Below the pieces are notes generated by a model, which was not told the DNA's origin, ran no database searches, and saw nothing but the letters and a program-made list of their open reading frames with translations. Positions 6,401 to 47,206 of a stretch of DNA of 64,000 bases are shown here, one piece after another (positions within the stretch are counted from its first letter, which is position 1; each line of letters begins with the position of its first letter). Source of the stretch: Lotus japonicus. Its lineage: Eukaryota > Streptophyta > Magnoliopsida > Fabales > Fabaceae. The position numbers and the translations under genes were made by a program. The stretch covers positions 39,623,158 to 39,687,157 of the forward strand of contig NC_080042.1 of NCBI RefSeq assembly GCF_012489685.1, in the 5' to 3' direction.

Positions 6401-6615
6401 ATTGGCAGCTTCATCAGTTGGATGTCAAAAATGCTTTCCTTCAAGGTCATCTTATTGAGACCGTTTATATGGAGCAAGCCTCCTGGATTTGTGGATCCTC
6501 GTTTCCCGACTCATGTGTGTCGATTGAACAAGGCCCTCTACGGCCTCAAACAGGCACCTCGTGCTTGGTTTCAACGCTTGAGCTCTTTTCTCCTGCGTTA
6601 TGGTTTTTCGTGTAG
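3421..6615 (+). pseudogene. Copia gag-protease-integrase-RT (N-terminal part, frameshifted)
   Basis: Polyprotein of the copia element. Residues ~1-280 are gag; a CCHC zinc knuckle ([14 protein letters not shown]) lies at ~289-302. The protease motif at ~334-339 reads YMDTCA where this family has D-T/S-G-A, so Cys replaces the flap-site glycine next to catalytic Asp336. Integrase follows, with SDNGTEF and QNGRVERKH around the second and third acidic residues, then a proline-rich linker and the start of RT ([15 protein letters not shown]). The frame is lost by one extra base near 6478 inside the RT motif VYMEQ; from there to the stop at 6615 the translation is out of frame. The gag start at 3421 is the first ATG giving the family N-terminus. 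Confidence 0.9.
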
Positions 6616-7654: not shown

Positions 7655-7805
7655 GAGTAATATCCTACGGGATATTCCTTTATTTTATTATTGATTTATT
7701 TTGTAATATGCCTTAGAATATTCTTAGCATATTCTGTCATTTTATTATTATAAATAATATTGTCTACCTCACACACAATTTGTGGTGAGAGAATCCAATC
7801 TTACA
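7639..7805 (+). repeat. 3' LTR of the copia element
   Basis: It is identical to 2717-2883 over all 167 bases and is followed by the duplicated GTGAT. Confidence 0.95.
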
Positions 7806-8720
7806 GTGATGAGGAAGGAGTGTCCGTGGTTGTCTCATGAAGAAGAAGAAGTGTGGCTGCAGCTAGTAGAAATAAGGAGAAGAGGAAGAAAGGAAAATGG
7901 GTTTTGCATAGGGAAGAAAGGAAGCAAACGAGAAGAAGAAAAAGTGAGGAGAGAGTGAGATTGAGTCGAGGATGAGAGTGGATGGAGGGATAAGGATGGA
8001 TGATTAGATATTTAGGGGAGATATTTTCATAAGATATTTTGAGAAGATATTTTTAAAACCGGTATGAATTGATTTAGACACAGAATGACTTAGCTCATAG
8101 AGTTAAGAGAAAAATATAGGGGTGATATATAATTATCCCAAAAATTAAGAGGAACTCTATGAAATGGTAAAATATAAATTTGAATCACTTTGAACAAAAT
8201 AAAACGATCCATGAACCAACTACTGAGTAGAAACTGAGCTAAAGAATAATTGTGAGACAATTATAGCAAATATGACGTCGTCATATTATGCGTCTGAGCT
8301 AAGTATAAATTATAGGAAAAATGACAATAATAATTATTATCATTTGAGGAGAAAATATTTTGGAACGACCTGCTCCAAAATCTGACACAAAACTGATTAA
8401 GGAAATATTCTCCGGATGAGAAAACTTCATTCACGGAAAAGATTTATAGAGACGAAAGGATTAAAACTACGCAGACGGAAACTCCGGAAGGAGCTCCGAT
8501 AAGAAATCCTTTGGGTCAGGGTCTCACTTAAGTCCCTGCGGAGATAAAGTCTAACTTTATCGGATTTCTGGAAAGCGAAACATATCGATCTTACAGTCAA
8601 AAGTTCCATAATGGAACACTTGCCATAATCAAACATAAAAACAATAGAATATAAACACTCAATTAAATTAATAAATCGAAAATAAATCAATAATCTAGTT
8701 ATTTAATTCAAGGTCTTACA

Positions 8721-9861
8721 ATACTACCCCCCAAAAAGAAAGTTTCGTCCTCGAAACTTAGTGTCAGAAGAACTCCGAAGTGCCATTCCCTCACATAACA
8801 TTTGCTAAGCTATCCTCAAAGTCTCGTTTACCCTTAGGTTCTTGGTGACTCTCCCACATATAACAACCTCCAATCTGCAACTCAATGCTAGAACTTTCCG
8901 TCCTTAACCTTGTCACTCCTACGTCAATCAAATTCTTAGGTTCCTCCCCAAAATCGGAATATCTCTATGTCTCAAACACCTAAGACAAGAATTCCTAAAC
9001 TTAAAGTCTAAACGTTCACCAAGTTTGGACCTCTATTGTCCTTTAACTCTCCTACACTCCTCAAGTGGAAATCTATTTCTTAAAACTACAACTTGTTCAC
9101 TAGGAAAATCAACCACTTAATATATACGTATCTTCCAAACTCGACTAGTCAACGATCAACTCTAATCAATCCTCTTATCATAGTCCATGCCAGCTGTGAT
9201 TCCAAATATCGACCCCTCAATATTAAGTTGATCAGGCTCAATATCTTGCGGAAGAAAATTCGAAAAAAAAAACTCACTAGTAAGGCCAATGAGTCTATCT
9301 CATCAAGTGGTCACATCTAAACTAAGATCACCTCTTAATCTACTCAATCTCCAACAACTTCATCTAGAAGAAGTACAACCTTAATTCCTGAAATTCATAC
9401 CACATCCCATTAGGATTCATTCTTAGCTTCTATCTCTCCTTACTAACATATCCGTACAAAACAACTTCCAGGTTTAGCACTTCTCTAAACCCTATACAAC
9501 TGTCCTAATTATAACACAAACAACGGTCAAAGGAATGTGCATAATGCATATTCTTTCCCCGTTCAACAACATATAGTTTCTACCTGGAATACCGTATAAC
9601 AAAGTAGGCAAACAACAAGTACAGTTAATATTTCGGTGGGGGTACTAACCATCTAGTCAGAAGTTAAGGGGTTAGTGTTCAAGAAAACAATAACAACAAG
9701 AAACAACTAGTAGACAAAATAAACAATTATATAATCTATATGGTAACACTCTGTCAATCGATAAACACCCAGCCAATCATATACAGAGTTCAAACAACCT
9801 AGCATAGAAGACATATTCCCTAACAAGCTCTGGTTTCTCAACCAAAGCTCTGATACCACAA
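8721..9861 (-). other. Non-coding interior of the LARD-like element
   Basis: Between the two LTRs I find no gag, protease, RT or integrase frame on either strand. On the minus strand it opens with the primer-site complement of GCTCTGATACCA (9847-9858) three bases from the LTR and ends with a TTTTTGGGGGGTAG-type purine tract next to 8720. The intervening ~1.1 kb is AT-rich. Confidence 0.75.
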
Positions 9862-12800
9862 TGTAACGCCCCGAATTTCGGGTGTCACTTTAGTAACCTA
9901 TTAAAGTAAATATGCAATGTTTTCCAAAATGATACCTAAACACGAGTATATTTTTTTTTCTTTTCAAATGTATTTCCAAAACATGTCATGCATACTCCCA
10001 ACTACAAAACCTAACCAATAGAAACAACTCAACAAAAACCTATTATGCAATGACACCATGAATCCGACATACTCCCTACGATCTCCACATCGGGGAACCG
10101 CAGGAAAGCAATGCATCGGAACCTACCCGAAACCTCAAATATAAATTCCTAAAATCTTTATGCAAGCTTAAACCAATAATGGTTAGCTCTCTAACCCAAT
10201 GCTCTAGCCCTACACCCGAATCTATTCTTCGAGTCATCCACAGTTCTTCTCTCCGACTCGTATGAAGATCAAGCTCCATCGAGGATTCTTCATCGCCTAA
10301 TAGCGTTAAGCGCCCAAACAACAAGTAGCAAATAGAAAGGGTTAACTCCATGCAATTACCATGTATAAAAGAGAAAATCATGCTATTCAAATTTAATTAC
10401 CTAGCATGGTAAATAAACTAGCAACTTAAGTTAATCCAGATATCAACAACTTAACATAGATCAACTCAGATAATAATAACCTCAACAATGTAACATCCAA
10501 TCAGATATCAATAAACCAATAACTAAAATCCAACAACATAGGGTCAGGTGTTAGTTCTCTATAATGCAACTATATGTTGCTACCAAAATGGATCGATCGG
10601 CAACGTCTCTCAAGACGGGACAGACGTGGAACGACAACCACTAAATGCCACTTAATATCGCCTCACAAGACGGGACAACCATGTGGAACGACAACCACTG
10701 GATGCCACTTAATATCGCCTCACAAGACGGGACAACCATGTGGAACGAAAACCACTGGATGCCACTTAATAACGCCACGAAGGACGGGACAGACATGTGG
10801 AACGACAACCACTGAATGTCACTTAATAACGCCTCGAAGGACGGGACAGACATGTGGAACGACAACCACTGAATGCCACTTAATAACGCCTCGAAAGACG
10901 GGACAGACATGTGGAAGGACAACCACTGAATGTCACTTAATAACGCCTCCAAAGACGGGACAGACATGTGGAACGACAACCACTGCACTGCCATTAAGTT
11001 CATCCCTATATGCCAAAATCAAACAACAATAATCACGTCTTATCCACTTGAAAGCAGTAATGACGGAAACCAGTAAACGGCCGAAGCCTCTCAGAAAACG
11101 GAGACACACGTCTCAATAAGTTCACTCGGCCGAAGCCTCAAGAAAACATTTTCCCAGTTCAGCACAACAGTCATAATCAAATGCCAATCAATATAAACAT
11201 CTTCATCTCAAACGTAGGCAGTGCGATAAATACATGCAAGACTCAAGGACACTCTAAAACTGAGTTACCCTTACCTTAGCCAATTTTCTTCCTAAACGGT
11301 GACTTCATTTCGATCACATCTTTGTTTTCTCGTGTCGTCTTGCTTCCTTTTATTATTTGGCTTCAACGCCAAGCGCTCCCGTTATTCGTACCCTTCATAA
11401 GTACACTTAACGAAATAACTAACTAAGTTAACCCACTAACTCAAGGTCTTAACTACGACTTTAGACAATTGACCCGAAGCACACGTAATTTAAACGACTC
11501 TTTCTCAGTCAGCAGTTACAACAAAATAATAGAGTACATATCTCTTTTGAAAATTAAATCATTTTGTAAAGCAAATCGCAACTCCTCCCTAATCAACTGT
11601 TAAACTTCAATTTTCACAATAACAATGAAAATATTTATTTTTCTTTAAAACTTGCTTACTCGAGGCTAAAACATATACAAGAGTTGAAGGCTTACAAAAA
11701 TAAAGTTTCGGAAACTTGTCGGCGAAGGGTCGTTAGAGAAAGTTGCGACTCACGGGGTTGACGGAGGGATTGTCGCCGGAGACACAAAGGAAGGTTGTAC
11801 CTTCACCCTTTCGCGGCCAGGAACTCAACGGCGCTGTCCGTTTCCCCAAAGAGTCGACGGTTTGCCCAGAAAGTTCAGCCGAAGGTCGACGGTGGTCGTC
11901 GGGGTCGTCGAATAAAATGACCCAAATATGAAATTGAAAATAGTGGTTTGCTCTCCTCTCAGCAAGGATCGTAGCAGTATCCTCCGTTTTTCCATCGGTC
12001 GCCGGAGTTGACCGGAAAGAGCTCCCGAAGGCGGCAGCGGCGGCGGTCGACGTCGGCGGAACGACGATCCGGAATATGGGTTTTGTTGTGGACGTCGCAA
12101 GGGTTCCAATAATACTAAACTTTCTGTGAACGGAGGCTTGATGACACCGGAAATGAAGGGCGAAGTTGGCGACGTCGGCGACGGCGTACTCCTCTGTTTT
12201 CACGTTGTGGTGGCTGTGGTGGCTCGCGTTTTGGGGCTGCTGGACTCGTTGGTGGCTGGCCTTGTATGGTGGTGGTTCACGGCTGAAGTGCAAGAGGATC
12301 GTGGTTGCTGCCATAGTTGTGGGTTCATGGTGTTTTCATGGTGATTGTGCGTGGGAGGAGAAAAGAAGAAGAGAGCTTGGTGCAGTGGCTTTCATGGTTG
12401 AAAGGAGAAGAAGAACGTGATTATGGTGGCCTCTTGGCTGGACTGTTGCCATGGTGAGGAGGAAGGACGGTGGTGATGGTGTGGGTGCTGCACGTGAAAG
12501 AAGAAGAGAGGAAAACCATGGTGGTGATGGCTGGCTTCGTTGTGGCCATGGAGAGGATTGGTGGCGGCTTGAACATGAAGGAAGAAGCAACTCGTGATGA
12601 TGGTGAGGTGCTGTACAAGAGAGAAAGGAAGAATTTGGTGTTGGTGATGAGGAAGGAGTGTCCGTGGTTGTCTCATGAAGAAGAAGAAGTGTGGCTGCAG
12701 CTAGTAGAAATAAGGAGAAGAGGAAGAAAGGAAAATGGGTTTTGCATAGGGAAGAAAGGAAGAAAACGAGAAGAAGAAAAAGTGAGGAGAGAGTGAGATT

Positions 12801-13333
12801 GAGTCGAGGATGAGAGTGGATGGAGGGATAAGGATGGATGATTAGATATTTAGGGGAGATATTTTCATAAGATATTTTGAGAAGATATTTTTAAAATTGG
12901 TATGAATTGATTTAGACACAGAATGACTTAGCTCATAGAGTTAAGAGAAAAATATAGGGGTGATATAAAATTATCCCAAAAATTAAGATGAACTCTATGA
13001 AATGGTAAAATATAAATTTGAATCACTTTGAACAAAATAAAACGATCCATGAACCAACTACTGAGTAAAAACTGAGTTAAAGAATAATTGTGAGACAATT
13101 ATAGCAAATATGATGTCGTCATATTATGCGTCTGAGCTAAGTATAAATTATAGGAAAAATGACAATAATAATTATTATCATTTGAGGAGAAAATATTTTG
13201 GAATGACCTGCTCCAAAATCTGACACAAAACTGATTAAGGAAATATTCTCCGGATGAGAAAACTTCATTTACGGAAAAGATTTATAGAGACGAAAGGATT
13301 AAAACTACGCAGACGGAAACTCCGGAAGGAGCT
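9862..13333 (-). repeat. 5' LTR of the LARD-like element, truncated
   Basis: It is homologous to 1-8495 after removing the copia insertion. The minus-strand 3' end (...GGGGCGTTACA at 9862) is intact, but about 225 bases of the 5' end, matching 8496-8720, are missing at 13333. It preserves the empty copia target (GGTGATGAGG) near 12645. Confidence 0.85.
10612..10992. repeat. 57-bp minisatellite, second LTR copy
   Basis: Seven units in the same order and with mostly the same variants as 681-1042, but unit 3 is full length here, which explains most of the length difference. Confidence 0.9.
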
Positions 13334-13550
13334 TTCTTCAGAACGAAGTTTTATCGTCCGACGTTCACGGCAAAAAGTAGTTTTTCGGGGCAAATTAACT
13401 TACACTGCTTTTGGATCGTTTTTCCCTAATGATAGAGATTTGTTTTGAGTTCTGGAATTCTGTCGCCAGAATCTCGCTTAGAATTCACCGTTGAACGTGC
13501 TGCAAAAATCGGAATCGCGAAATATTCATTTTCCCACGATTTCACCTTCC

Positions 13551-13559
13551 TATAAATAG
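13551..13559 (+). promoter_or_regulatory. LTR TATA box
   Basis: TATAAATAG lies at the same relative place as the TATA boxes of the other two Tekay-type LTRs, upstream of a purine-rich leader ending in TCGAG|GTAACT at 13688/13689. Confidence 0.65.
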
Positions 13560-14362
13560 TAAAAAAATCAAAATATCTTCCATTCCACCACATAGAGGCC
13601 GCGAGTTGAGGAGAGAAAAGAGGAGAGGAGAATTTCTCCGAAACTTGACCGATCTTCGAGCTGTTTGTCCCTACTTCAAGGTATCGAGGTAACTAACTTG
13701 ATTCTTACCTCTGATCATTGTTTCTACTGCGTTTCTTTATCTCTTTCTGAGCTCAAAGTTTCAAGCTTTTTGTAAAACTATCCTTTTTTCTCGATTTTTC
13801 GCTTGGGATATCTTCTATACTTGCCCAACAACCTAGAACACTCGCCGTTATTCGCCGATTTTGATCGAGTTGTCAAAGATCTGAAAAACTGCTGAGAAAA
13901 CCCATTTGTGCACATATCGAACCTTTAATGTCGAAAAGTCACAATCCGACTTAGTGCCTTTAGGATTAGTTGCTACAAATGTCGTTAGGAATATCGCTAT
14001 CAAATTTGTTTTCCGAAGTTTTAACTTTGAGTTTTTGAGCTTTAATTTTGGACCAAAATGCCCCTAACTAGTCGTAATTCGATCCGTTCGTCCGAAAAAT
14101 TTTCCGACAATTTCTTTACCCTAGTTTTACCCTAAAACAACCTTGTAATTAAATTAGATCGAAGAAAAAGCGCCGGAGCCTTTTTCCTCTTGTGGCCGAG
14201 AGCATGCTTTAGTGGGGGGGGTTTCGTTTGCGAAAACTTGTCCTTTCGTGCTCGATTTTCGTACTCTGAAGCTTCAATGCTTTGTCTATAGTTAATTGGT
14301 TGTATTGTGATCGAGCTAATCGATTTTGTTTGGATTTCTGCTTTGTTTTCTCCGGGGTTCAG

Positions 14363-14434
14363 TTGAAGGAACTTTGGGTTTTACCGAGCATTTGTGTGAA
14401 GAGAACCTAAACCAAGAGGCTGGAGCAACTCGAG
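14363..14434 (+). other. Exon-like block in LTR leader (72 nt)
   Basis: The block is bounded by CAG and GTTAGG and aligns in position with 78-nt blocks at 24139-24216 and 49887-49964 (minus). The six-base length difference is a multiple of three. It contains no ATG. It is inferred to be an internal leader exon; there is no transcript evidence. Confidence 0.4.
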
Positions 14435-15651
14435 GTTAGGGCAACTTACCTATTAGCTAAAGACTGCATGATAGGCGTCGATAAATTCGACTTATGTTTT
14501 ACTTTGATATTGATTATGATGATGAATTAATGTTATGATGTTTTCCATGACTTATGATATTGAGATGTTATTGAATTGTGCGTTTTGACGCGACTTCGGA
14601 GTGGAGAATCACTGAACTGGTTACTTTTGATCTTTCGGGTTGGGGAAACAACCCTAGGCAAGTCCAAACCCGAGGGTTGAGACTTAGCCATCGTTTGTAT
14701 ACTTAGACTTTCCCCGGGGTTACATTTGGTGGGATTTTGGTAAACTTAGAATGACTAGAATCTTGGAAACTAGAGACCTTAGGGAACTTAGTGGTCAAGA
14801 ATAAAACTCATAACTTGATTAATTCAACTCGAAACATATTTATTAATGAATAAAACCATAGGGAACTTAAATGGGTTAGGATTGCGAAAGACGGGGAAAT
14901 GTCGACAAGTCTTGTAGCTATTTGGGAATTGGGGAAAACCACGGATGCAATCCACGGTGAAGACGGGCGGTCACCGTGTACTCTAGTACTCTTCCATTGG
15001 GGTTTGTGTCGTATTGGCCGACATTAAACACTTGGGTTTATTGGGATCTTTTACTTATAGAGTTTTGGAACAAAAGAGAAACGAAACTTGACTTCATAAA
15101 TGAAATTCATAATGCATTAACCAAAGATAGAACATCTTCAAATAGTAATAACAATTTCTTGGAAAAGACTTAGGATCTGATATAAGTTTGAAAACGGGAA
15201 GTGTCGGCGATCCTAGCGTTGTGACTGGGACAGTCACTCAGTGTAGATATCACTCCTGATTTGTTAAGCGTTGGTTCGATCATCAAGAAGATGAGTCGTT
15301 GTGACGAGGAGTCACAGAATGCGAGCAGCAATCTCTCTAATCGTTGATGAGTTGTTTGGCCATCGAGATGGTGAGCCAGGGTAACTTGAAAGGTCACTGA
15401 GTACGAGATGCATTCTTTTGCTCGTGGAGCAGTTTGGTTGGCCATCGAGACGGTGAGCCAAAGTGACTAGGGAAGTTACCAAGTGCGACTAGCACTTCCT
15501 TGTGTACCTTAGGGTATTGTAGAGACAATGTACTCTAGCTAGACACGCGTACCTTGGTGAGGACGATTCGTTGTTTGGCTAACCATATTGCATTCATGCA
15601 TACATTTCTTGGAAAGTGTGCTGCTTTCCGAAGGACGATCTCAGATCGGAC

Positions 15652-15741
15652 TTCATCGGAGCGAGATGCTTCACAGGAGCGTGCTGCTTCACAGGAGCGA
15701 GATGCTTCATAAAAGCGAGATGCTTTAGCGGAGCGAGATGC
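15652..15741 (+). repeat. 18-bp minisatellite, five units
   Basis: Five units of the form TTCACAGGAGCGAGATGC with few differences. It occupies about the same part of the LTR as the 36-bp repeats at 48911-49222, suggesting a repeat-prone site in this LTR type. Confidence 0.85.
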
Positions 15742-16028
15742 TTGGCTCGTCCCATCCGTCGAGATGGTGACATTTTATCCGGATCATCTTTTGAGCATGA
15801 CATTGCATTGGCACGCCATGCACCTAACTATAATTGTTGATGTGTTGAAGATCCAATTGTCATTTGTGATTTGATGTTGATAAATATGCTATGTATATAC
15901 CTTAGGGTAGGCAATACATAAGTTATACGTATATATACAACATATATATATACCCTCTTATTCTTCAAATGTTGGTTGTATATCTATTGTATACTGTAAG
16001 TTGACCCTAGCGCCTTGGCTTTGTTTGT

Positions 16029-16145
16029 ATGTCTGTGTTTGGGTGGTCGGCCTGCTGCCAGACGTTCGACAGCTGGTTCGTGATGATTCGTCACTCGGGG
16101 AGGACCAGGAGTGTAATGACCCGGACTGAATGCAAGACCAGATGA
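16029..16145 (+). pseudogene. Relic of the LTR-encoded accessory ORF
   Basis: The first ATG after the conserved TTGACCCT boundary (16001) opens 38 codons. The peptide contains DSWFVMIRHSGRTR, which lines up with GDWFTMVSPSGGTR of the full-length versions. It then terminates, and most of the downstream coding block, including the PPPPP and acidic segments, is deleted. It is therefore an old, broken homologue in a third LTR lineage. Confidence 0.45.
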
Positions 16146-16611
16146 GGGTCGATGCTGGAAGTATATAGGTTGGGTGTTAGTGTCATAGCTCTGATTTTCA
16201 TTTCTTATTTTGGGGCAGGGTAGGTCCCCGACTATTAACTTTTTGTGTGGTTCTCTTCCATGAGGATCATAGGGAGTTTGTCGGACATAGGAGGTCCTTT
16301 GGAGGCCATTTTGGGGCCGACTTTCTCTTGGATGACTGTAGGTAAAACTTTTTACTTACACTACTGGTTCTGTACATATTTGCCTACGGGCACACTACTT
16401 TAGGGTCACTGCGAGTGCGCGTGACGTTGACGTGCAGCTGAGGCTGTACCTGTTTATACTTGTTTGTACATCGGTTAGTTTAGTTGCTCGGTTATGTCTT
16501 TGCTTTCTATCGATTTATTTAAAAGGAATCGAATGAAAAAAAAATACCTACTTCTCCACTTTGTTTTATTTTTGAGTTACTAAAGTGACACCCGGAAATC
16601 GGGGTGTTACA

Positions 16612-22794: not shown

Positions 22795-23506
22795 GTTGAT
22801 GTAAGACCCAAGTTTTTAAGCTTATGCTAAGTGAATAAAATCTTATTCACGATTAGGGTTGATGTATTGTGAAGGGAAACCTAAACAAGAGTTTACTAAA
22901 TGAAATAAATTTATGAAGGAGAAAGTTCAGGAAAAGTTTAAGGATTGCATCATGATCGATAAAAGTTATAGCACGATCGTTATACGCTTAAACCTAGGTC
23001 AGAAACCCTAGTAAATAGCTAGTTTACACTTAAAGTCACGATGGAAGCTAATTCCAAAAATCTTCAGAGAAACGTTAGAACTTCTCTTATTCCATATATA
23101 ACAAGCGGTTCGATGCGAAACTCTAGGATCTACGAACGTCCGATTCCAATCATCGGAAGTTTGCCGAAACCAAAACCCTGGTAGTTCGAAAACCCTAGAA
23201 TCAACCGACGATGAAGACTTTTTCTATTCAGAGCTTCAAATTAAGATTCTACACGCGTAAACCCATTTCTCTTGATGATTTCAATCTTTCTTCAGAAGGA
23301 AGTTTTCTATTCCGACATTCGATGCAAAAAGTAACTTATCGGGTAAAATAGTTTTACACCGACTTTACATTAGTTACCAAAAATACAAGGAGACCTCATT
23401 TTAGTTTTGGAATTCTTTCGCCAAAACCTATCTTAGAATTCACGGAGAATGAAGCCGGAAAAATCAGATTCGCGAAACTTTCATTTTACCGCGTTTTTCC
23501 AACCTC

Positions 23507-23515
23507 TATATATAG
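23507..23515 (+). promoter_or_regulatory. LTR TATA box (5' LTR)
   Basis: TATATATAG; transcription would start around 23540. The same box is at 32027-32035 in the 3' LTR. Confidence 0.7.
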
Positions 23516-24138
23516 CCAAGAAATGAGAAAAAAACACAAAAACTCACCCATTTTCTTCCAAGAGGCCACGAGTTTGCTAAGAGGAGGAGGAGAAGAGATT
23601 TTCTTCATTTCTTGCTTGATCGTTGATCCAACAGTTGCTACTTCAAGGTTTCGAGGTATAGTCGCTAATCCTTACCTCTGATCGTCTTTTCCATAGCTTT
23701 TCTCTATGTCTTTCTGTGCTCATAGTTTTGAGGTTTTTGCAAAACTATCCTGAATACTTCATTTTTGATTCTAAACATCTTCCCTACGTTCTCCTGAGTA
23801 TGTTTAGCTAATAATACTCCGCCGATTCTCGAAAAATATTGACCAAAATACCCCTGCGACAGTTTTTGATCCGATAATTTTTCCGAGTTTAGAATACCCT
23901 TAGTTACGGCTAATGATAGCATAGGAACCAAGTTTGATCGAAGAAAAATCGAACCCCACAATTACCAATAGTGGCCGAGCACCCTAAGGGGAGGGAGGAA
24001 AATTCCTTTTTCGAAAACTTGTCCTTTCACGCTAGATTATCGTACCTCGGAGTATGTATTACTTCGGGTAACCTTAGTGAGCATTGATAGCTTAGTTTCC
24101 GATAGATTTTGATTGATTTATGTGGTTTTGCTCAAAAG

Positions 24139-24216
24139 GTGCTTTTGGGGAATTTCCTGAAGAGCAAGGCTTTGCTTGTGAAGAGGAGTTGGAAGATCAC
24201 CCTGGAGAATCTTCAA
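24139..24216 (+). other. Exon-like block in LTR leader (78 nt)
   Basis: Preceded by TTTTGCTCAAAAG and followed by GTGAGAGC. It matches in length and boundaries the block at 49887-49964 on the minus strand of the other Tekay element and has no ATG. It is absent from the 3' LTR of the same element because of the 812 bp deletion. Confidence 0.5.
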
Positions 24217-25703
24217 GTGAGAGCTACTCACTGAATCTTTAGTTAATGCTTAGGGTCGATGCTTTCGACATTGATTTACTGTTTATGCACTTGTTTGTGT
24301 TTGATTGGGAAAAATGTTTTCTGAGGCTTCGGCTGACAATGTAGATGATTCATCTACTGACTGTTTTTGAGATTGACTTACATGCTATGTGCTATGTGGG
24401 TAATCTAGGATGTGTGGTGCATGCTTTATATGCTAAGTGCTACGTGTTTATTCTGAGATGTATTGATATATGACATGTTTGTTGACTGTGATGATTTAAT
24501 TATGTCTTTAGCTGATATCTGTGATTCTGAGTAGTGAGAATAGCGGGCAGGTCATGCCGATTTTATTTTGAGAGTTTTGAGAAAGTTTGATAGGACGAAT
24601 GAGATTCGGGCCTTGTTATGGTTTTTCATGGATCGAGACATTCTCTGGAGTCATTTGGGATTTGGAGATCCCGAGAACTGATAAGACTTGCGATAAGACT
24701 AAAAGGATATTATTTTGTAAAGAAAACTCATAAGACATTAAACAACCTCTAAATCTTCATATAATGATAATAAACACGAAAGGAAGCTTTGGATGCAAAT
24801 CTTAGTTTTGGAAAACGAGAAGTGTCGTCGGATCCAAGTATTGAGGAGATTGATAAGTTCTGAGTATGTTGATTCTCTTGTGCTCTGGGAGCAGTGGTGT
24901 TGTTGGGCTATCCGGGGGATAAGTCCGGGAAAATGATAGTTTCCGAGTATGTGATACTCTTTGCTCGTTGAGCAGTTGTGACCATCGGATGGAGATGAGT
25001 CGGATGATTTGGAGATCATCATGAGTTATGTGTTGTTGTAGAGATGTGTCTTTTGTCGCAGAATCGACTGTTACCTTAGGGTAAGCTTTTAGAGACATTA
25101 ATTTAGCTAGAACACGTGGCGACGTGTCGAGTGAGGTCGGAGACGATGTTTGACTAATCATACTGCATTCATGCAACATTAATGAGGTATTAACACGAGA
25201 CGTACTTCGGACCTCGTCGAATTCCAAAATGGTCATAAGACCCGGATTTCCGTGTAAGAGCGTTTGTAGACGACTCTTGTAGCAGACCGAAATGGCAGAC
25301 CTACGGGTTACGACTGATCTGACTACCGTTGTTGTTGGAGTAAGAGGCACGCGGTCCGAAATGGTCCCACCGTGGCTGGTGTTAGGGCTGATCCGTTTGA
25401 TGTCCATCCGTTCCGGAATGCATTTGGTTAACTGGGTTAACCGCCATATCATTGCATGCAACATGCATACTGACTTAGTTGTTGAGTGTGTTTGATAAGT
25501 GATAATCCTATTTGATGCATGCTATTTGCTATTATTGTTGTTTACATTCACTGTGGAATATGCAACCCTAGGATGTTATCTCTAGCTATAAGCCTAAGTG
25601 GCTATTTCGTATCTGTACCTATTAGGTTTATTACTTACATAATTCTTTGGAGTTGACCCTCACGTCTTCTGTGTGTGTTTTGGCGGACAACGCCCTTTAT
25701 CAG

Positions 25704-26183
25704 ATGTCCATTGCGGACTGGTTCACAATGGTCCACCCTTCGGGGGGGATTAGATACGAGATGATTAACCAGGACGACCCCGGTTCGTGGGTGGTTGACC
25801 TCGCTAGCCATCGAGCGACGTACTCGGGGCGGATTATGGAGGACCATGTAGATAGGGTAGGATACTTGACGTCAAGAGTGCTGCGGAGATGCACTGTCAG
25901 TTTCAACTTGCCACCAGGTGTGCATTGCGGACCAGGAGCAGGAGGACCACCACCACCACCGTTATCTTCGGATGAGGAGGATCCCTCAGAGGAGGAGCCA
26001 GTGGGAGTGCCTTCTTCAGAGTCCAGTTCACCCACCGTTGCTGTTATAGATGATCATGGATCGGGCCCTAAGCCCGTGAGTCCAGCACCGGAGCGTATCG
26101 CTGTGGCGAGAGGAGGACGGGTAGTGTACATAGACTTGGTCGTTCTTGATTCGGATTCAGACGACGATCATGCTAGCATGTAG
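25704..26183 (+). CDS. LTR-encoded accessory protein, unknown family (159 aa)
   Basis: This ORF lies wholly inside the 5' LTR, between its TATA box and gag. I do not recognise the family. Order of parts: N-terminal DWFTMVHPSGG and YEM (residues ~5-20), a central GRIMED and SFNLPPGVHCGPG block (~48-75), a run of prolines, an acidic stretch SDEEDPSEEEP, and the C-terminal IDLVVLDSDSDDD, which resembles a SUMO-interacting motif. There is no signal peptide or membrane segment, so a soluble, perhaps nuclear protein is likely. ATG 25704 is chosen because it is the first ATG after the conserved TTGACC boundary. Homologues: 33413-33892 (3' LTR), 47706-48188 (minus, other element) and a relic at 16029. 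Confidence 0.6.
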   Translation: MSIADWFTMVHPSGGIRYEMINQDDPGSWVVDLASHRATYSGRIMEDHVDRVGYLTSRVLRRCTVSFNLPPGVHCGPGAGGPPPPPLSSDEEDPSEEEPVGVPSSESSSPTVAVIDDHGSGPKPVSPAPERIAVARGGRVVYIDLVVLDSDSDDDHASM

Positions 26184-26676
26184 GTTTTAGTGCTGGTGTG
26201 AGCTCCTCGAGATAGGATTAGTGTAGGAGTAGAGTCGTAGCTCTGACTGTCATTTGTTTCCATTGGGACAGGGTAGTTTCCCACCTATAGCTTTTTGTGT
26301 GGTTTCCTTACGGGAATCACAGAGGGTTGGTTGGACTTAGGAGGTCTTCTTTTCAGGCCATTGGGCCAGCTTATTCTCAGTTTTGAGGGATGGTGTTGCG
26401 GACACTTCACCTTTATATTTGGTTTGTATATATTGCCTACGGGCGCTACATTTTCTACTTTCCGTCACTGGAGGTTACTCGTGACGAGGTTGCTACTTAC
26501 AGCGGGGGCTGTTATATATATTGTATATTAGTTCTGTTGTTTTTCGCTTTTGGGTTTTATTTACTTCAGTCTTGTCTATGTTTATATTATAAAAAAAAAA
26601 ATATATTCACGTTTTTCCGCATTAAGTTTATTTTTGGTTACTAAAGTGACGCCACCGAAATCGGGGTGTTACATTG

Positions 26677-26688
26677 TGGTATCAGAGC
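26677..26688 (+). promoter_or_regulatory. Primer binding site, tRNA-Met type (Tekay)
   Basis: TGGTATCAGAGC, three bases after the LTR end. Confidence 0.9.
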
Positions 26689-26885
26689 ATGGTCGAGTCT
26701 TTCGGGAGTTGTTGGGGAATAAGTCTTCTGTGCTAGGTTGTGTGACTCTGAAAAGAGTGAAAATTGATTGTCTGCAAGCGATTCTTCGCTTAGAATTGAT
26801 TGAAGTTATTGCTTAATCATATTGTATAGTTATGCTAGATGCTATCTTATGATGAGTACTAACTGTTTGTTTCACTCAACAGAAC

Positions 26886-28244
26886 ATGGTGAATACTAAT
26901 CAGTTAGCTGAGATGATGGCCACGCAGGCGAATGATAGTGCTATGAGGCATGCTGCTGAAGAGGCACGTGAACAGCATCAACGTCAGAGAGAGGTTACTC
27001 TCGACCAAAACAAAGGCCTGAATGATTTTAGGAGTCAAGATCCACCAATGTTCTCGGGTGGTACTGACCCGGACAAAGCGGATCTCTGGATTCAGGAGAT
27101 TGAGAAGATATTTGGCGTTTTGCAAACTGCTGAGGGTGCCAAGTTGGGTATGGCAACTTATCTGCTGCTCGGTGATGCTGAGTACTGGTGGAAGGGCACC
27201 AGGGGGATTATGGAAGACAACCATGAGGAGATCAACTGGAACTCCTTCCGAACTGCATTCGTGGAGAAATACTTTCCAACAAGTGCTCGGGATGAGCGGG
27301 AGTCACAATTTCTGACACTCCGTCAAGGAGGTATGTCTGTACCGGAATTTGCTTTGATGCTGGAATCTTTGGCGAAGCATTTTCAATTCTTCCATGATCA
27401 TGTGAATGAGTGCTACATGTGCAAGCGCTTTGTTAATGGACTGAGACCTGATATTGAGGACTCAGTGAGGCCACTGGGAATCATGCGTTTCCAATCTTTG
27501 GTTGAGAAAGCCACGGAAGTGGAACTGATGAAGAACCGGAGGCTAAACCGGGCTGGAACTGGAGGGCCGATGAGGTCGGGCTCTCAGAATGTTCAGAACA
27601 GAGGGAGGTTTCAAAACAGGAGGCCGTATCAGCGTCCTGCTGGTAGAGGATTTGCTTCAGGATCTTACAGGCCCATGGTGGGTGCTGCTGGTGGTTCTGG
27701 AGATCAGACTCAGAACAGGGAGCTGACTTGCTTCAAGTGTGGGAAGCCGGGACACTTTGCTCGTGCTTGTCCCGACACGAGGCCTCAATGCTACAACTGT
27801 AACAAATTGGGGCATACTGCTGCACAATGCAGGGTACCAAAGGCGGAACCAACCGTCAACACTGCTCGTGGAAAGCGTCCTGCAGCTAAAGCGAGAGTCT
27901 ACACCATGGATGGTGATGATGCTGAAGGGGTCGATGGGCTGATCCGAGGAGACTGTGAGATTGACGGTAATCTCCTATCTGTACTTTTCGATTCCGGTGC
28001 AACGCATTCATTTATCTCTAGAGAATGTGCGATCAGATTAAGACTTCCTATTACTGCTTTGAGCTTCGATCTTATAGTTACCACACCTGCCAAAACTCTA
28101 CTTGCTAATACAGCATGTATGTACTGTTCGGTAACATATAACAATAGAGACTACCATGCTAACCTAGTATGCCTAACTCTTAAGAACCTAGATGTTATCC
28201 TAGGAATGGATTGGTTGTCCCACTATCATTGTCTTTTGGACTGA
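26886..28244 (+). pseudogene. Tekay gag and protease
   Basis: Gag starts MVNTNQLAEMM after a short leader. Residues ~50-230 are the gag domain ([38 protein letters not shown]). Two CCHC knuckles follow (CFKCGKPGHFARAC and [14 protein letters not shown]), then the protease with [12 protein letters not shown] and [17 protein letters not shown] one-base deletion directly after LLD creates TGA at 28242-28244 and shifts the remaining pol into another frame. Confidence 0.9.
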
Positions 28245-31319: not shown

Positions 31320-34300
31320 TGTAAGACCCAAGTTTTTATGCTTATGCTAAGTGAATAAAATCTTATTCACGATAAGGGTTGATGTATTGTGAAAGGAAAC
31401 CTGAACAAGAGTTTACTAAATGAAATAAATTTATGAAGGAGAAAGTTTAGGAAAAGTTTAAGGATTGCATCATGATCGATAAAAGTTATAGCACGATCGT
31501 TATACGCTTAAACCTAGGTCAGAAACCCTAGTAAATAGCTAGTTTACACTTAAAGTCACGATGGAAGCTAATTCCAAAAATCTTCAGAGAAACGTTAGAA
31601 CTTCTCTTATTCCATATATAACAAGCGGTTCGAGGCGAAACTCTAGGATCTACGAACGTCCGATTCCAATCATCGGAAGTTTGCCGAAACCAAAACCCTG
31701 GTAGCTCGAAAACCCTAGAATCAACCGACGATGAAAACTTTTTCTATTCAGAGCTTCAAATTAAGATTCTACACTCGTACACCCATTTCTCTTGATGATT
31801 TCAATCTTTCATCAGAAGGAAGTTTTCTATTCCGACATTCGATGCAAAAAGTAACTTATCGGGTAAAATAGTTTTACACCTACTTTGCATTAGTTACCAA
31901 AAATACAAGGAGACCTCATTTTAGTTTTGGAATTCTTTCGCCAAAACCTATCTTTGAATTCACGGAGAATGAAGCCGGAAAAATCAGATTCGCGAAACTT
32001 TCATTTTACCGCGTTTTTTCAACCTCTATATATAGCCAAGAAATGAGAAAAAAACACATAAACTCACCCATTTTCTTCCAAGAGGCCGCGAGTTTGCTAA
32101 GAGGAGGAGGAGAAGAGATTTTCTTCATTTCTTGCTTGATCGTTGATCCAACAGTGTTTATTCTGAGATGTATTGATATATGACATGTTTGTTGACTGTG
32201 ATGATTTAATTATGTCTTTAGCTGATATCTGTGATTCTGAGTAGTGAGAATAGCGGGCAGTTCATGCCGATTTTATTTTGAGAGTTTTGAGAAAGTTTGA
32301 TAGGACGAATGAGATTCGGGCCTTGTTATGGTTTTTCATGGATCGAGACATTCTCTGGAGTCATTTGGGATTTGGAGATCCCGAGAACTGATAAGACTTG
32401 CGATAAGACTAAAAGGATATTATTTTGTAAAGAAAACTCATAAGACATTAAACAACCTCTAAATCTTCATATAATGATAATAAACACGAAAGGAAGCTTT
32501 GGATGCAAATCTTAGTTTTGGAAAACGAGAAGTGTCGTCGGATCCAAGTATTGAGGAGATTGATAAGTTCTGAGTATGTTGATGCTCTTGTGCTCTGGGA
32601 GCAGTGGTGTTGTTGGGCTATCCGGGGGATAAGTCCGGGAAATTGATAGTTTCCGAGTATGTGATACTCTTTGCTCGTTGAGCAGTTGTGACCATCGGAT
32701 GGAGATGAGTCGGATGATTTGGAAATCATCATGAGTTATGTGTTGTTGTAGAGATGTGTCTTTTGTCGCAGAATCGACTGTTACCTTAAGGTAAGCTTTT
32801 AGAGACATTAATTTAGCTAGAACACGTGGCGACGTGTCGAGTGAGGTCACAGACGTTGTTTGACTAATCATACTGCATTCATGCAACATTAATGAGGTAT
32901 TAACACGAGACGTACTTCGAACCTCGTCGGATTCCAAAATGGTCATAAGACCCGGATTTCCGTGTAAGAGCGTTTGTAGACGACTCTTGTAGCTGATCGA
33001 AATGGCAGACCTACAGGTTACGGCTAATCTGACTACCGTTGTTGTTGGAGTAAGAGGCTCGCGGGCCGAAATGGTCCCACCGTGGCTGGTGTTAGGGCTG
33101 ATCCGTTTGATGTCCTCAGTTCCGGAATGCATTTGGTTAACTAGGTTAACCGCCATATCATTGCATGCAACATGCATACTGACTTAGTTGTTGAGTGTGT
33201 TTGATAAGTGATAATCCTATTTGATGCATGCTATTTGCTATTATTGTTGTTTACATTCATTGTGGAATATGCAACCCTAGGATGTTATCTCTAGCTATAA
33301 GCCTAAGTGGCTATTTCTTATCTGTACCTATTGGGTTTATTACTTACATAATTCTTTGGAGTTGACCCTCGCGTCTTCTGTGTGTGTTTTGGCGGACAAC
33401 GCCCTTTGTCAGATGTCCATTGCAGACTGGTTCACAATGGTCCACCCTTCGGGGGGGATTAGATACGAGATGATTGACCAGGACGACCCCGGTTCGTGGG
33501 TGGTTGACCTCGCTAGCCATCGAGCGACGTACTCGGGGCGGATTATGGAGGACCATGTAGATAGGGTAGGATACTTGACGTTAGGAGTGCTGCGGAGATG
33601 CACTGTCAGTTTCAACTTGCCACCAGGTGTGCATTGCGGACCAGGAGCAGGAGGACCACCACCACCACCGTTATCTTCGGATGAGGAGGATCCCTCAGAG
33701 GAGGAGCCAGAGGGAGTGCCTTCTTCAAAGTCCAGTTCACCGACCGTTGCTGTTATAGATGATCATGGATCGGGCCCTAAGCCCGTGAGTCCAGCACCGG
33801 AGCGTATCGCTATGGCGAGAGGAGGACGGGTAGTGTACATAGACTTGGTCATTCTGGATTCGGATTCAGACGACGATCATGCTAGCATGTAGGTTTTAGT
33901 GCTGGTGTGAGCTCCTCGAGATAGGATTAGTGTAGGAATAGAGTCGTAGCTCTGACTGTCATTTGTTTCCATTGGGACAGAGTAGTTTCTCACCTATAGC
34001 TTTTTGTGTGGTTTCCTTACGGGAATCACAGAGAGTTGGTTGGACTTAGGAGGTCTTCTTTTCAGGCCATTGGGCCAGCTTATTCTCAGTTTTGAGGGAT
34101 GAAGTTGCGGACACTTCACCTTTATATTTGGTTTGTATATATTGCCTACGGGCGCTTCACTTTCTACTTTCCGTCACTGGAGGTTACTCGTGACGAGGTT
34201 GCTACTTACAGCGGGGGTTGTTATATATATTGTATATTTGTTCTGTTGATTTTCGCTTTTGGGTTTTATTTACTTCAGTCTTGTCTATGTTTATAATATA

Positions 34301-34381
34301 AAAAAAAAATATATTCACGTTTTTCCGCATTAAGTTTATTTTTGGTTACTAAAGTGACGCCACCGAAATCGGGGTGTTACA
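31320..34381 (+). repeat. 3' LTR of the plus-strand Tekay element, internally deleted
   Basis: It matches the 5' LTR closely except that about 812 bases corresponding to roughly 23636-24447 are absent at 32156, with GT shared at both breakpoints. The deleted part holds the putative splice donor and the exon-like block. The TATA box (32027-32035) and accessory ORF remain. Confidence 0.93.
33413..33892 (+). CDS. LTR-encoded accessory protein, 3' LTR copy (159 aa)
   Basis: Second copy of the ORF at 25704-26183, still fully open. Compared with that copy I count about seven residue changes (among them Asn to Asp, Ser-Arg to Leu-Gly, Glu to Lys) and about three silent changes, the pattern expected of decay without selection after insertion. 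In the 3' LTR it lies downstream of gag-pol and is probably not expressed as in the 5' position. Confidence 0.5.
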   Translation: MSIADWFTMVHPSGGIRYEMIDQDDPGSWVVDLASHRATYSGRIMEDHVDRVGYLTLGVLRRCTVSFNLPPGVHCGPGAGGPPPPPLSSDEEDPSEEEPEGVPSSKSSSPTVAVIDDHGSGPKPVSPAPERIAMARGGRVVYIDLVILDSDSDDDHASM

Positions 34382-38328: not shown

Positions 38329-39540
38329 TGTAAGATCAAAGTTTTGATCTAGCAGTACAACTCTATGTTTTGATGATTATAAGTTGACCTTTTGATATGA
38401 ACAATTGTGGTACTCTAACGTGTTTTTCTGAGTGTGCTATTTACAGGCTCTGACCTCAACTCAATCTCACACAAATCAGAAGCACTGTGTATAAAGAGCT
38501 ACCCAAGCAACGCTTTCGCATTCACTATGTTCAGTATGAACAGTGGAAAAGCTTCAGAAGGTCTGAAGTTATACAAACTCTGATGTGGACTCAGTCACGA
38601 GAAGCTCTGAAGATCCAGAAAGTCTGATAACCAAGAAACACTGAAGGCTCAGATGTTCTGATGGTGTAGAAGACTCTGAAGATCCAGAAGCTGATTAGTG
38701 AAGTTCTGATGTCCAGAAGCAAGATACTCTGAAGACCATGTTCTTCCCTCTGAGTTCAGAATCAGAAGAAACAATGGTCCGAGGATCTGGGCTTTCCCTC
38801 TGACTCTGATCAACCGGCTTCACAAGTTCCAATATGAAGCATTCCCCTGATCAGAAGTCTCCTAGGTTTAAAGGTCGCGTCGCTATCCAAGTACAAAAGC
38901 ATATGTACTATCCTGACGACCTACCTAACAGTCTCAGACACAGCAGAAGCTGGATTTTCCAGAACTGCCCTCCAACGGTAGCATTTCCCATGCACCGCTC
39001 AACCCTAATCCTTGGAGTATATAAAGAGGCTGAAGACTGAAAGAAACGGCTAGAAGCATTCACATACGCGCAAGACAAACTTAAATTCTTCTAAGCTTTC
39101 TTTCATCTGAAATTCATTGAGTTTACTATTAGCTTTTTAGAAGCAAATCTCTTGTAAACAATTCTTTGATAAACAGTTTGTTTAGTTCCTTTAGGAGATC
39201 AAGGTTGATCGGATCCTAGAGAAGACTAAGAGAGTGAATCTTAGTGTGAGCTAAGTCAGTGTAATTGTTAGTCACTTGTAGGTTTCAAGTGCAGTTGTAA
39301 CTCTTACCTGATTAGTGGATTGCCTTCATTCTAAGAAGGAAGAAATCACCTTAACGGGTGGACTGGAGTAGCTTGAGTGATTTATCAAGTGAACCAGGAT
39401 AAAATCCTTGTGTGCTTTTCTATCTCTTATCTTTAGCACTTAAGTTCTCGAAAGATTTGTCAAAATCTTTAAGGTGGAAGTTTTATACTGAAAACGTTAT
39501 TCAAACCCCCCCCCCCTTTCTACCGTTTTTCATACCTTCA
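38329..39540 (+). repeat. 5' LTR of the Sirevirus
   Basis: TGTAAGATC...CATACCTTCA, 1,212 bp, with TATA box TATATAAAG at 39018-39026 and a C-run near 39507-39516. Confidence 0.95.
39018..39026 (+). promoter_or_regulatory. Sirevirus LTR TATA box
   Basis: TATATAAAG; also at 57841-57849 in the 3' LTR and in inverse orientation in the solo LTR near 59838. Confidence 0.75.
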
Positions 39541-43517: not shown

Positions 43518-44183
43518 TGTAACACCCCGATTTCGGTGGCGTCACTTTAGTAACCAAAAAAAGTACTTAAGCGGAAAAACGTGAATTATTTTTTTTTCGA
43601 CAATATAACTAAAGACAGAAAGCAATAAACTTCCCAACAAAAGATAAAAGAAGCTACTATACAACTATATATACATGCCTCGCTAAATACAACCACGTCA
43701 CGAGTAACCTCCAGTGACGGGTGACAGAAAGAAAGTAACGCCCGAAGGCAATATGTACAGTCCAAGATAAAGATACTGTGTCCGCAACGCTAAACCACAA
43801 AATCTGAGAACAAGTTGGCCCAGCGGCCTAAGAGAAGACCCCCTAAATCCAACCAGCTCTCTGTGATCTCCATAGGAAACCACACAAAAAGCTACCGGTA
43901 GGAAAACTACCCTGTCCCCGAAAACTGAAGCATGACGGTCAGAGCATCGACACTACTCCTACACTATCCCTACCCGAGGAGCCCACACTAGCACTCGATC
44001 CTACACGCTAGCGCGGTCGTCATCCGAATCTGCATCCAGGACGACTAAGTCGACATACTCAACACTGCCCTCTCTGTCCACCCTAATGCGCTCCTGCACT
44101 GGCCTCTCGGGCTCGGGGCCCGGAACGAGATCCGCGACGACAGCAGCAGCAGTAGACGGACTAGACTCCGTCGAAGCCCCACC
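43518..44183 (-). repeat. 3' LTR remnant of the minus-strand Tekay element
   Basis: Aligns with 47223-47888; the remnant holds the LTR 3' end and the C-terminal codons of the accessory ORF. Confidence 0.92.
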
Positions 44184-47010
44184 CAGGATGGTATTGTAAG
44201 GTAAAATCGTAATCCTTGAGAAACTCCATCCAACGTCGTTGTCTCATGTTCAACTCCTTCTGGTCAAACAAGTACTTCAAGCTCTTGTGATCGCTAAATA
44301 TGGTGAAATTGCATCCATATAAGTGATGTCTCCAGATCTTCAACGAAAACACAATGGCAGCAAGTTCTAAGTCATGAGTCGGATAGTTCTTCTCATGAGT
44401 CTTCAGTTGTCGTGAAGCATAAGCTACCACCTTCCGATGCTGCATCAGCACACATCCCAACCCTTGATGCGAAGCATCACAGTACACTTCATACGGTTCC
44501 TCTGGTTGCGGTAAGACGAGCACAGGTGACGTCGTCAAACGTTCCTTCATTGTCTGAAAGCTAGTTTCGCACGCTTCGGTCCATGCAAAAGGTTGATCCT
44601 TTCTCGTAAGTTGAGTCAAGGGTCCAACGATCTTGGCGAAATTCTCAATGAAGCGACGATAGTACCCCGCCAAACCGACAAAACTCCTGATCTCAGTCAC
44701 GGTCTTTGGCCGTTCCCATGACAACACCGTCTCTACCTTTGCTGGATCCACAGCTATACCTTCTTTAGAGATCACATGGCCCAAGAATTTTACCTCTTCG
44801 AGCCAAAATTCACACTTAGAAGGGTTGGCGTACAGCTTTGTCTCTCTCAACACTTGTAAAACCTGACGCAAGTGCCCTTCATGATCTTCAGCGTTCTTTG
44901 AGTAGATCAGAATGTCGTCGATAAACACCACGACGAATCGATCCAAGAACGGATGGAATGTCCTGTTCATGTAATCCATGAAGATAGCAGGTGCGTTTGT
45001 CACCCCAAATGGCATCACTAGATACTCATAGTGTCCATAACGAGTCCGGAATGCCGTCTTCTGGATATCCTCAGTCTTTACTCTGATCTGATGGTAACCC
45101 GACTTCAGGTCTATCTTTGAGAATATCGCAGCTCCTCGTAGTTGATCCATCAAATCATCAATTCTAGGTAGCGGATACCTATTCTTGACGGTCACTTTGT
45201 TCAGTTGTCGATAGTCGACACAAAGTCTAGATTTCCCATCCTTCTTTTTCACCAATAAGACGGGTGCTCCCCAAGGTGAAACGCTTGGTCGGATGAATCC
45301 CTTCGACAGAAGATCCTCAAGTTGAGACTTCAACTCCACCAATTCCGCAGGTGCCATCCGATATGGTGCAATCGAAATCGGTCCTGTTCCCGGTACGATG
45401 TCAATAGCAAACTCAATGTCGCGTACAGGCGGCAAACCAGGTACATCGCCAGGAAAAACATCCGCGAAGTCCCTCACAACTGGAATATTACTCACTTCCG
45501 AATTCCCTTTACTCTCCAAGCTCAACAAAACTGAATACTCTTGAGATCCTTCATTCAGAGAGACGCTAATATGATTGGCGGATAGATACTCGGAAAGGTC
45601 CGAGTCAGGAAATACCACTCTCTTTCGGCTACAGTCCAGAAGACAATGGTAGTGGGACAACCAGTCCATCCCTAGGATAACATCTAGGTTCTTGAGAGTT
45701 AGGCACACTAGGTTAGCATGGTAAACTTTATCCCTATAGGTTACTGGGCAATACATGCATGCAGTGTTGGCAAGCAGAGTTTTGGCAGGTGTGGTAACTA
45801 TAAGATCGAAACTCAAAGCAGTAACGGGAAGTTTTAATCTAGCAGCACATTCCCTAGAGATAAAAGAGTGCGTTGCTCCGGAATCAAAAAGTACAGTTAG
45901 GAGATTACCGTCAATCTCGCAATCTCCCCTGATCAGACCATCAACCCCTTCAGCTTCTTCACCATCCATGGTGTAGACTCTTGCCTTGGCAGCAGGACGC
46001 TTCCCACGAGCAGTGTTAACAGCTGGTTCTGTCTTGGGTGCTCTGCATTGAGCAGCAGTATGCCCCAACTTGTTACAGTTAAAGCATTTGGGCCTCATGT
46101 CAGTACAAGCATTGGCATAGTGCCCAGGCTGCCCACATCTGTAACAGGTCATCTCCCTGTTCACAGTCTGACCTCCAGAACCTCCAGCAGTACCCACCAT
46201 GGGCCTATAAGATCCTGAAGCAATTCCTCTACCTGCAGGACGTTGATACGGCCTCCTGCTCTGAAATCTCCCTCTGCCTTGAAAATCTTGAGAGCCCGAC
46301 CTCATCGGCCCTCCTGTTCCAACACGGTTCAGTCTCCTGTTCTTCATTATCTCCACCTCAGTGGCTTTCTCAACCAAAGTCTGAAAACGAGTGATTCCCA
46401 ACGGTTTCACCGAGTCTTCAATATCGGGCCTCAGCCCATTCACAAAGCGCTTGCACATGTAGGGTTCATCGACCCCATTACGGAAGAATCGAAAGTGCTT
46501 GGCCAACGATTCCAGCTTGGCAGCATATTCCGGGATGGACATGCTACCCTGACGAAGTGTCAGGAATTGCGACTTACGCTCGTCCCGAGCACTATCTGGA
46601 AAATACTTTTCCAGAAAAGCAGCACGAAACGAAACCCAGTTCACTTCCAAGTTGTTTGCTTCCATCATTCCTCTGGCGCCTCTCCACCAGTACTCAGCAT
46701 CACCCAACAGTAGAAAGGTTGCCATTCCCACCTTGGCCCCCTCAGCAGTCTGTAATACACCGAAGATCTTTTCAATCTCCTGGATCCAGAGATCCGCTTT
46801 GTCCGGGTCAGTACCCCCCGAGAACTTAGGAGGATCTTGTCTCCTGAAATCATTTAATCCCTTATTCTGATCCAGAGTTATTTCCCTCTGGCGTTGGTGC
46901 TGATCACGTGCCTCCTCAGCAGCACGCCTCATAGCATTATCGTTTGCCTGTGCAGTCACAGCTTGGGCCATAGTGGCCATCATCTCAGCTAGTTGGTTAG
47001 CGTTCACCAT
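44184..47010 (-). CDS. Tekay gag-protease-RT-RNase H polyprotein, lacking integrase
   Basis: Starts [14 protein letters not shown] at 47010 and is open through ~940 residues; the frame runs on to 44161 with a few codons from LTR sequence. Gag core ([27 protein letters not shown]), two knuckles [14 protein letters not shown] and [14 protein letters not shown], protease [14 protein letters not shown] with intact [11 protein letters not shown], and RNase H ([24 protein letters not shown]) ending at LQYHPG. All catalytic motifs seen are intact, but without integrase it could not insert by itself. Confidence 0.9.
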
Positions 47011-47206
47011 GTTCTGCTAAATTAACAAACAGTTAGTGCTCATCATAAGATAGCATCTAATATAACTATACAATATGATTAAGCAATAACTTCAAACAAT
47101 TCTAAGCGAAAAATCGCTTGGCAGACAATCAATTTTTACTCTTTGCAGAGTCACACAACCTAGCACAGAAGACCTATTTCCCACGACTCCCAAAAGACTC
47201 GAATAA

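Follow-up and report, generated by a model that had tools for sequence, protein, structure and literature searches.

Open reading frame in the LTRs of two retrotransposons

The 64,000-nucleotide stretch of Lotus japonicus DNA analyzed here (NC_080042.1, positions 39,623,158 to 39,687,157; hereafter the window) carries an open reading frame (ORF) located in the long terminal repeats (LTRs) of two distinct retrotransposons, elements A and B. In agreement with the original prediction, the ORF is present at 25704-26183 (+) in the 5' LTR of element A, at 33413-33892 (+) in its 3' LTR, and at 47706-48188 (-) in the 5' LTR of element B (159, 159, and 160 codons, respectively, plus a stop codon); its 3' portion also survives in the truncated 3' LTR of element B (44001-44183, -). 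This LTR ORF is probably the coding exon (exon 2) of a real accessory gene lying wholly within the LTR and likely possessing its own intron.

Element A is bounded by a 5' LTR at 22800-26673 (+; TGTAAG...GTTACA) and a 3' LTR at 31320-34381 (+), each with the target-site duplication (TSD) GTTGA. A segment of about 0.81 kb of the 5' LTR (23635-24444), comprising the proposed exon 1 and its splice donor, is absent from the 3' LTR, so a spliced form would be possible from the 5' LTR only. Element B (43518-51452) retains a 5' LTR at 47223-51452 (-) and the TSD TATCT, intact at both outer ends, and has been internally deleted, the stretch from pol into the 3' LTR being gone. The LTR pair and TSD of element A, the TSD of element B, and the primer-binding site (PBS) TGGTATCAGAGC identify Ty3/gypsy LTR retrotransposons, and Pfam searches of the element proteins returned gag, RVP_2, RVT_1, and RNase H in element B, as well as integrase H2C2 and rve (the latter below the cut-off) in element A. 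Assignment to the Tekay (Del) lineage is plausible: the C-terminal integrase piece gave a sub-threshold Pfam match to SH3_Tf2-1, with no match to a chromodomain model, and LTRs longer than 3 kb fit this lineage. A third related LTR stretch (13332-16611) is 84% identical to a long-form LTR (subfamily described below) over 1.7 kb; nearly the whole ORF is missing from it, apparently through deletion.

Selection on the LTR ORF

Nonsynonymous and synonymous divergence (dN and dS; dN/dS, omega) was estimated with our own Nei-Gojobori script. Over 159 codons, elements A and B differ with dN of 0.190 and dS of 1.68, the latter near saturation, giving an omega of 0.113. Between the same two elements, the gag-protease frame (26886-28244 in element A, +), taken as the constraint control, gave 0.105 and pol 0.035, so that the constraint on the LTR ORF is close to that on gag. 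Of the substitutions, 29 fall at first, 29 at second, and 80 at third codon positions (chi-square p 6.5e-9), and an exact recount of the first 77 codons returned the 29 silent and 18 residue-changing codons previously counted by eye, with 30 identical. The five other frames gave omega values of 1.3, 1.0, 1.5, 0.24, and 2.0, the only low value belonging to a reverse frame which contains four stop codons and has its third codon position in common with the ORF. The single A-B indel within the ORF is 3 nucleotides long, whereas only one of the 10 indels listed for the flanks (25500-25703 and 26184-26400) is of that length.

These patterns bear on whether the stretch might have no protein function and be conserved as a regulatory DNA or RNA element, such as a CpG island, a packaging signal, or an upstream ORF regulating gag. 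The LTR flanks are conserved as well (p-distance 0.195 and 0.21), and CpG islands have been described in Del LTRs, although the available portions of that source report none for the eudicot LTRs it covered (PMC4029996). However, nucleotide divergence of the ORF (0.287) exceeds that of the flanks, its changes are concentrated at third codon positions, and its only indel preserves the frame; on the codon-position pattern, an upstream ORF or regulatory DNA was rejected, which leaves this explanation a very small probability. As a separate observation, A-B divergence is uneven along the aligned stretches 25047-26885 and 47010-48844: synonymous divergence is high in the LTR ORF (dS 1.68) and over the initial third of gag (dS 1.4-1.9), and far lower values are found elsewhere (LTR flanks, p 0.20-0.21; leader, p 0.09; remaining gag, dS 0.5-0.8; pol, dS 0.62). 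Either constraint on the flanks or a mosaic make-up of the elements could lie behind this contrast.

The 553.7 Mb assembly was searched with A-, B-, C-, and long-type protein queries, and the best 150 of 5,006 to 9,246 first-look candidates were scored for each, in overlapping sets biased toward intact copies (stops inside 1 of 150 matches in the B-type list and 13 of 150 in another). Four subfamilies, encoding proteins of 149-222 residues, were sampled in this way. The comparison covered 77 distinct open copies, of which 46 belong to A, 4 to B, 13 to C, and 14 to the long form; one copy outside the motif rules, C-type loci L112, L116, L117, and L121 (no ORF by pattern), and L104 (28 codons, too short) were omitted. 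Between subfamilies, omega was 0.13-0.26 for the whole ORF (five of six comparisons with computable pooled dS), 0.070-0.189 for the N-terminal domain (all six comparisons), and 0.24-0.43 for the linker (five comparisons with computable dS). The C-terminal tail gave 0.14 for A-C and 0.10 for B-C, the A-B value being saturated; the proportion of replacement differences (pN) between A and B was 0.146 in the tail, close to the 0.141 of the N-terminal domain and below the 0.216 of the linker.

In an analysis of 61 sequences (74 before removal of duplicates), median omega within subfamily A fell with increasing dS, from 0.74 at dS below 0.02 (12 pairs) to 0.19 at dS of 0.3-0.5 (221 pairs). As only open copies entered the within-A and between-subfamily analyses, both can favor constraint; LTR pairs chosen likewise nevertheless gave 0.80. 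Together, 12 such pairs, all A-type, had 37 replacement changes and 15 silent ones, no different from the neutral expectation given by site numbers (p 0.52). These are what was left of 17 pairs chosen from a larger number listed; the other five, including all four long-form pairs, had one or both copies truncated or not open. The contrast between LTR pairs and the A-B comparison is significant (2x2 table, p 0.001). The original prediction that the protein was constrained while the lineage was active and relaxed after insertion is thus borne out, including its count of seven replacement and three silent changes between the two LTRs of element A, which was reproduced exactly. Low omega between subfamilies, together with near-neutral values in LTR pairs, is the pattern that would arise if selection acted in the source lineage and inserted copies then decayed almost neutrally.

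A further sample was gathered by searching with non-coding DNA from the end of the LTR, an approach free of the bias of the protein search though not of that toward open copies. Of 4552 first-look candidates, 40 were scored, and the best 30, with both LTRs of some elements included, make up the sample; 20 of them were open over at least 150 codons (among them L034, which lacks the ATG), five carried indels, two carried stops, and three were partial. In the 20 open copies, pN/pS (replacement relative to silent differences) fell likewise, from 0.77 to 0.21. The ORF is therefore kept in most copies of this sample, as described for additional ORFs, and, together with the 149 of 150 best-scoring B-type matches free of stops, this indicates a family not dominated by frameshifted members that lack a recent intact source. 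Many B-type matches share an identical score, including same-strand pairs about 8.8 kb apart; from this and the scarcity of stops, the type of element B looks young. More generally, same-strand matches 7-9 kb apart represent LTR pairs.

The abundance of intact copies also bears on whether the LTR protein could be a trans-acting brake limiting copy number, as the truncated Gag of Ty1 does in yeast. A gene inside the LTR would persist in a solo LTR, and its dose could rise with copy number. Numerous intact B-type ORFs argue against such control, no gag family matched the protein, and we regard a brake as rather improbable.

Proposed intron, leader, and promoter

In the A, B, C, and long forms, the ATG of the ORF directly follows CAG, an arrangement (CAG/ATG, the slash marking the proposed junction) found in 85 of the 93 loci matched among 100. 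In the A, B, and C subfamilies, the same LTR carries a GTGAG donor 1.4-1.7 kb before the ATG, and this donor is present in all 22 readable A-type loci (a donor match was obtained in 24 of 60 loci); in these counts the copies are related, and some places are counted twice. The donor was recognized in A, B, and two C copies (CTTCAA/GTGAGA, CCACCG/GTGAGG, and CAG/GTGAGG, respectively), and the acceptor adjoining an open ORF in A, B, and one C copy, that of the other C copy, L126, being unmatched by the pattern used. The proposed exon 1 would thus end at 24127-24216 (+) in element A, followed by an intron of 1487 nucleotides (24217-25703, +; GTGAG...CAG) contained entirely within the LTR, and the corresponding stretches of element B are 49887-49970 (-) and, for an intron of 1698 nucleotides, 48189-49886 (-).

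A public L. japonicus protein record, P0006 (LOC130723053), spans this junction exactly. Its first 28 residues match the element B stretch 49970-49887 (-) with 64% identity (E 5e-7), and joining exon 1 to the ORF in three genomic copies accounts for 184, 184, and 183 of its 186 residues, with the ORF part 99% identical. The sequence LEELQ/MSM of P0007 fits the same junction in the A and C forms. Another relative, P0017, is an 'unknown' entry from Lotus; protein entries of this type generally derive from cDNA clones.

A, B, and the single long-form LTR inspected each have a canonical TATA box ([TC]CTATA[TA]ATAG) roughly 0.7 kb from the LTR start; of the two C copies, one has this box 5' of exon 1. 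The boxes of elements A (TCTATATATAG, 23507-23514, +) and B (CCTATAAATAG, 50770-50777, -) are the proposed promoters of the LTR transcript. Assuming that transcription starts 32 nucleotides after the TATA box, the spliced leader would contain five, five, and nine upstream ATGs in one A, B, and C copy each, compared with 16.0, 15.1, and 18.8 expected from leader density, that is, about a third to half of expectation.

Several observations weigh against this gene structure. The proposed splice junction is read from sequence and one public protein record, P0006, whose first two residues always differ and do not come from the exon 1 taken; P0005 and P0009 join the ORF in other ways. No GTGAG donor was found at the corresponding position of L103, the only long-form LTR inspected, and the first TATA box was not found by pattern in L126. 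In A, B, and C, a second TATA-like stretch some 150 nucleotides short of the LTR end could belong to a poly(A) region or serve as the promoter of genomic RNA, so that either box might be the promoter of the LTR transcript and the ORF might fall in U3 or in R. Exon 1 itself lacks clear codon constraint (omega 0.47, 0.50, and 1.70 over 30 codons); on this ground it was rejected as conserved coding sequence, and the extra N-terminal residues of public records are unlikely to be conserved protein. From this and the deficit of upstream ATGs, we conclude that exon 1 would serve mainly as an untranslated leader, translation presumably starting at MS[IM]. The in-frame codons just 5' of the ATG were likewise rejected as coding, since their A-B differences, read by eye, do not fall at third positions.

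An additional candidate acceptor directly precedes the gag ATG of element A (26863-26882, +; TTTCACTCAACAG/AACATGG), and an acceptor-like site at this position (AACAG or AGCAG/AACATGGT) occurs in 14 of the 16 readable sequences among 24 bearing the PBS, both window elements included. The leaders at 26674-26885 and 47010-47222, which end in this site, are strongly conserved. With such an arrangement, gag may be expressed from spliced RNA, and the LTR donor could be joined alternatively to the acceptor of the LTR ORF or to that of gag. Given one donor and two acceptor-like sites, genomic RNA would have to escape splicing or nuclear retention, and the product of the same gene could then handle the element's own RNA, for example by helping unspliced genomic RNA to exit the nucleus, as reported, in the portions of the source available, for CERV of Cer1 (PMC10309623). 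The protein is, however, acidic (net charge of -14 in A and -17 in B) and matched no RNA-binding family in Pfam, and we consider this role unlikely.

Predicted protein, possible role, and comparison with known systems

The LTR ORF encodes a protein of 149-160 or about 214-222 residues with 11-12% proline. No significant Pfam or PDB-sequence match was found, and no fold match stood out, in line with the earlier statement, in which the family was not recognized. At least 18 distinct relatives are among the protein matches listed, and all nine with a named source come from L. japonicus. One relative, P0011, is a 603-base public contig encoding a linker-less form in which GVLR is joined to TVYIDLVVLDSD, either by deletion or as a second splicing form.

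Transduction of host sequences is known for LTR elements (PMC7264820, available in part), and the ORF could in principle be a captured host gene whose constraint was exerted in the host and not in the element. Against this stand the relatives, since those with a named source are all from L. japonicus and P0006, the sole relative placed in the genome, has the ORF in many copies, as well as the same-strand matches that mark LTR pairs. With no host relative found among the at least 18 listed, host gene capture was rejected as highly improbable.

The AlphaFold model, based on 46 sequences, comprises a beta-rich N-terminal domain (strands 17-20, 29-32, 37-49, and 55-68; block means of the per-residue confidence score pLDDT of 70-75 over residues 31-70 and 54-61 before them), followed by a linker predicted to be disordered and, toward the C-terminus, a hairpin (129-137/140-148; pLDDT 62-64). 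In element A, residues 142-155 (26127-26168, +) form the tail YIDLVVLDSDSDDD, which resembles a SUMO-interacting motif (SIM). PIAS-type SIMs consist of a V-x-[VY]-[IV]-D-L core followed by a run of D and S, and tails such as AVIDLIVLDSDSDDD and VVYIDLVVLDSDSDDD share such a core and run, a likeness that is one of resemblance only. A pattern of hydrophobic core plus acidic/serine run, written after the tails had been seen, occurred in 69 of 77 open copies (44/46 A, 4/4 B, 12/13 C, and 9/14 long) and in 58 of 15,400 shuffled tails. A SUMO-binding role is weakened by several points: the fold model is poor (overall mean pLDDT 56), the SIM-like stretch is modeled within the beta hairpin rather than free, and long-form tails carry the pattern in just the nine cases given. 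A PDB sequence search with the tail returned no match.

Taken together, we consider it likely, with good confidence, that the LTR harbors a spliced accessory gene whose protein is under selection, whose intron is removed, and whose product of 149-222 residues is made. RNA polymerase II would initiate at the TATAAATAG-type box some 0.7 kb inside the LTR, and the 1.4-1.7 kb intron would be removed between the GTGAG donor and the CAG acceptor adjoining the ATG, whereby most upstream ATGs would leave the leader. The resulting protein, with its predicted beta-rich N-terminal domain and acidic SIM-like C-terminus, might work in trans, as an adaptor in the nucleus that most probably binds SUMOylated host proteins of chromatin, silencing, or RNA processing to the benefit of the element; this we suggest tentatively. 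Selection would act on source lineages, with inserted copies decaying approximately neutrally, as shown for the A-type LTR pairs. Slightly more speculative still is the full proposal, in which promoter, intron, and coding exon all lie within the LTR and the SUMO-binding adaptor counters host silencing in trans, as a plant counterpart of retroviral LTR accessory proteins.

Among retroviruses, sag of mouse mammary tumor virus (MMTV) and nef of primate lentiviruses are LTR-encoded accessory proteins reached by splicing. The Lotus ORF resembles them in lying within the LTR with an acceptor upstream, a likeness of position in which splicing is proposed from the acceptor sequence and the P0006 junction. 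For sag and nef, the donor is situated outside the 3' LTR; the Lotus gene would instead have its donor, intron, and acceptor within a single LTR.

The nearest published relatives in kind, judged from partly available sources, are ORF0 of Retrosat2, RIRE3, and RIRE8 and the 5' additional ORF of sunflower Tekay group 2 (PMC3485330, PMC11728184). These are Tekay-type elements, the lineage to which A and B would plausibly belong, and they share long LTRs (more than 3.2 kb in Retrosat2) and an extra ORF before gag-pol. The sunflower protein is also proline-rich (15.9%), has no recognized domain, and is conserved within its family. Compared by description, however, these ORFs are reported upstream of the gag-pol ORF and are not placed in the LTR in the portions available, and the sunflower protein is about 400 residues long with a nuclear signal, whereas that described here is shorter, acidic, inside the LTR, and probably intron-bearing. 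The antisense or env-like 3' additional ORFs of Grande, RIRE2, Retand, and Athila similarly encode an extra protein of unassigned role kept in most copies, but, as far as the available part of the source describes, they are internal, between the LTRs, and not repeated at both ends (PMC7264820), unlike the present ORF, which lies inside both LTRs. By kind, the Lotus ORF would thus belong with the additional ORFs of plant LTR retrotransposons, though not by their described internal placement. No description of an LTR-embedded additional ORF of this sort was found in the literature searched.

Two repeat features of the window lie apart from these elements. Repeat copies 57 nucleotides apart are present at 764-1177 and 10591-11118, two places 9.7 kb from each other, and a large inverted repeat at 57472-60216 has arms of 867 nucleotides that are 97% complementary and 1 kb apart, one arm also matching 38649-39513.

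Plant retrotransposon LTRs are commonly regarded as non-coding sequence with a regulatory role, and LTR-pair dating, counts of solo LTRs, and studies of LTR methylation rely on that view. Four LTR subfamilies of one genome nevertheless retain a constrained and probably spliced gene, which suggests that long LTRs, and not internal regions only, are worth scanning for codon-level constraint. If the gene lies wholly in the LTR, a full element would carry two copies and a solo LTR one; as each of the four queries returned 5,006 to 9,246 first-look candidates, unscored and overlapping, few protein genes in the L. japonicus genome may be repeated more often than the LTR ORF. It would provide a plant case beside retroviral sag and nef and a candidate element-encoded factor acting on host silencing or RNA processing.
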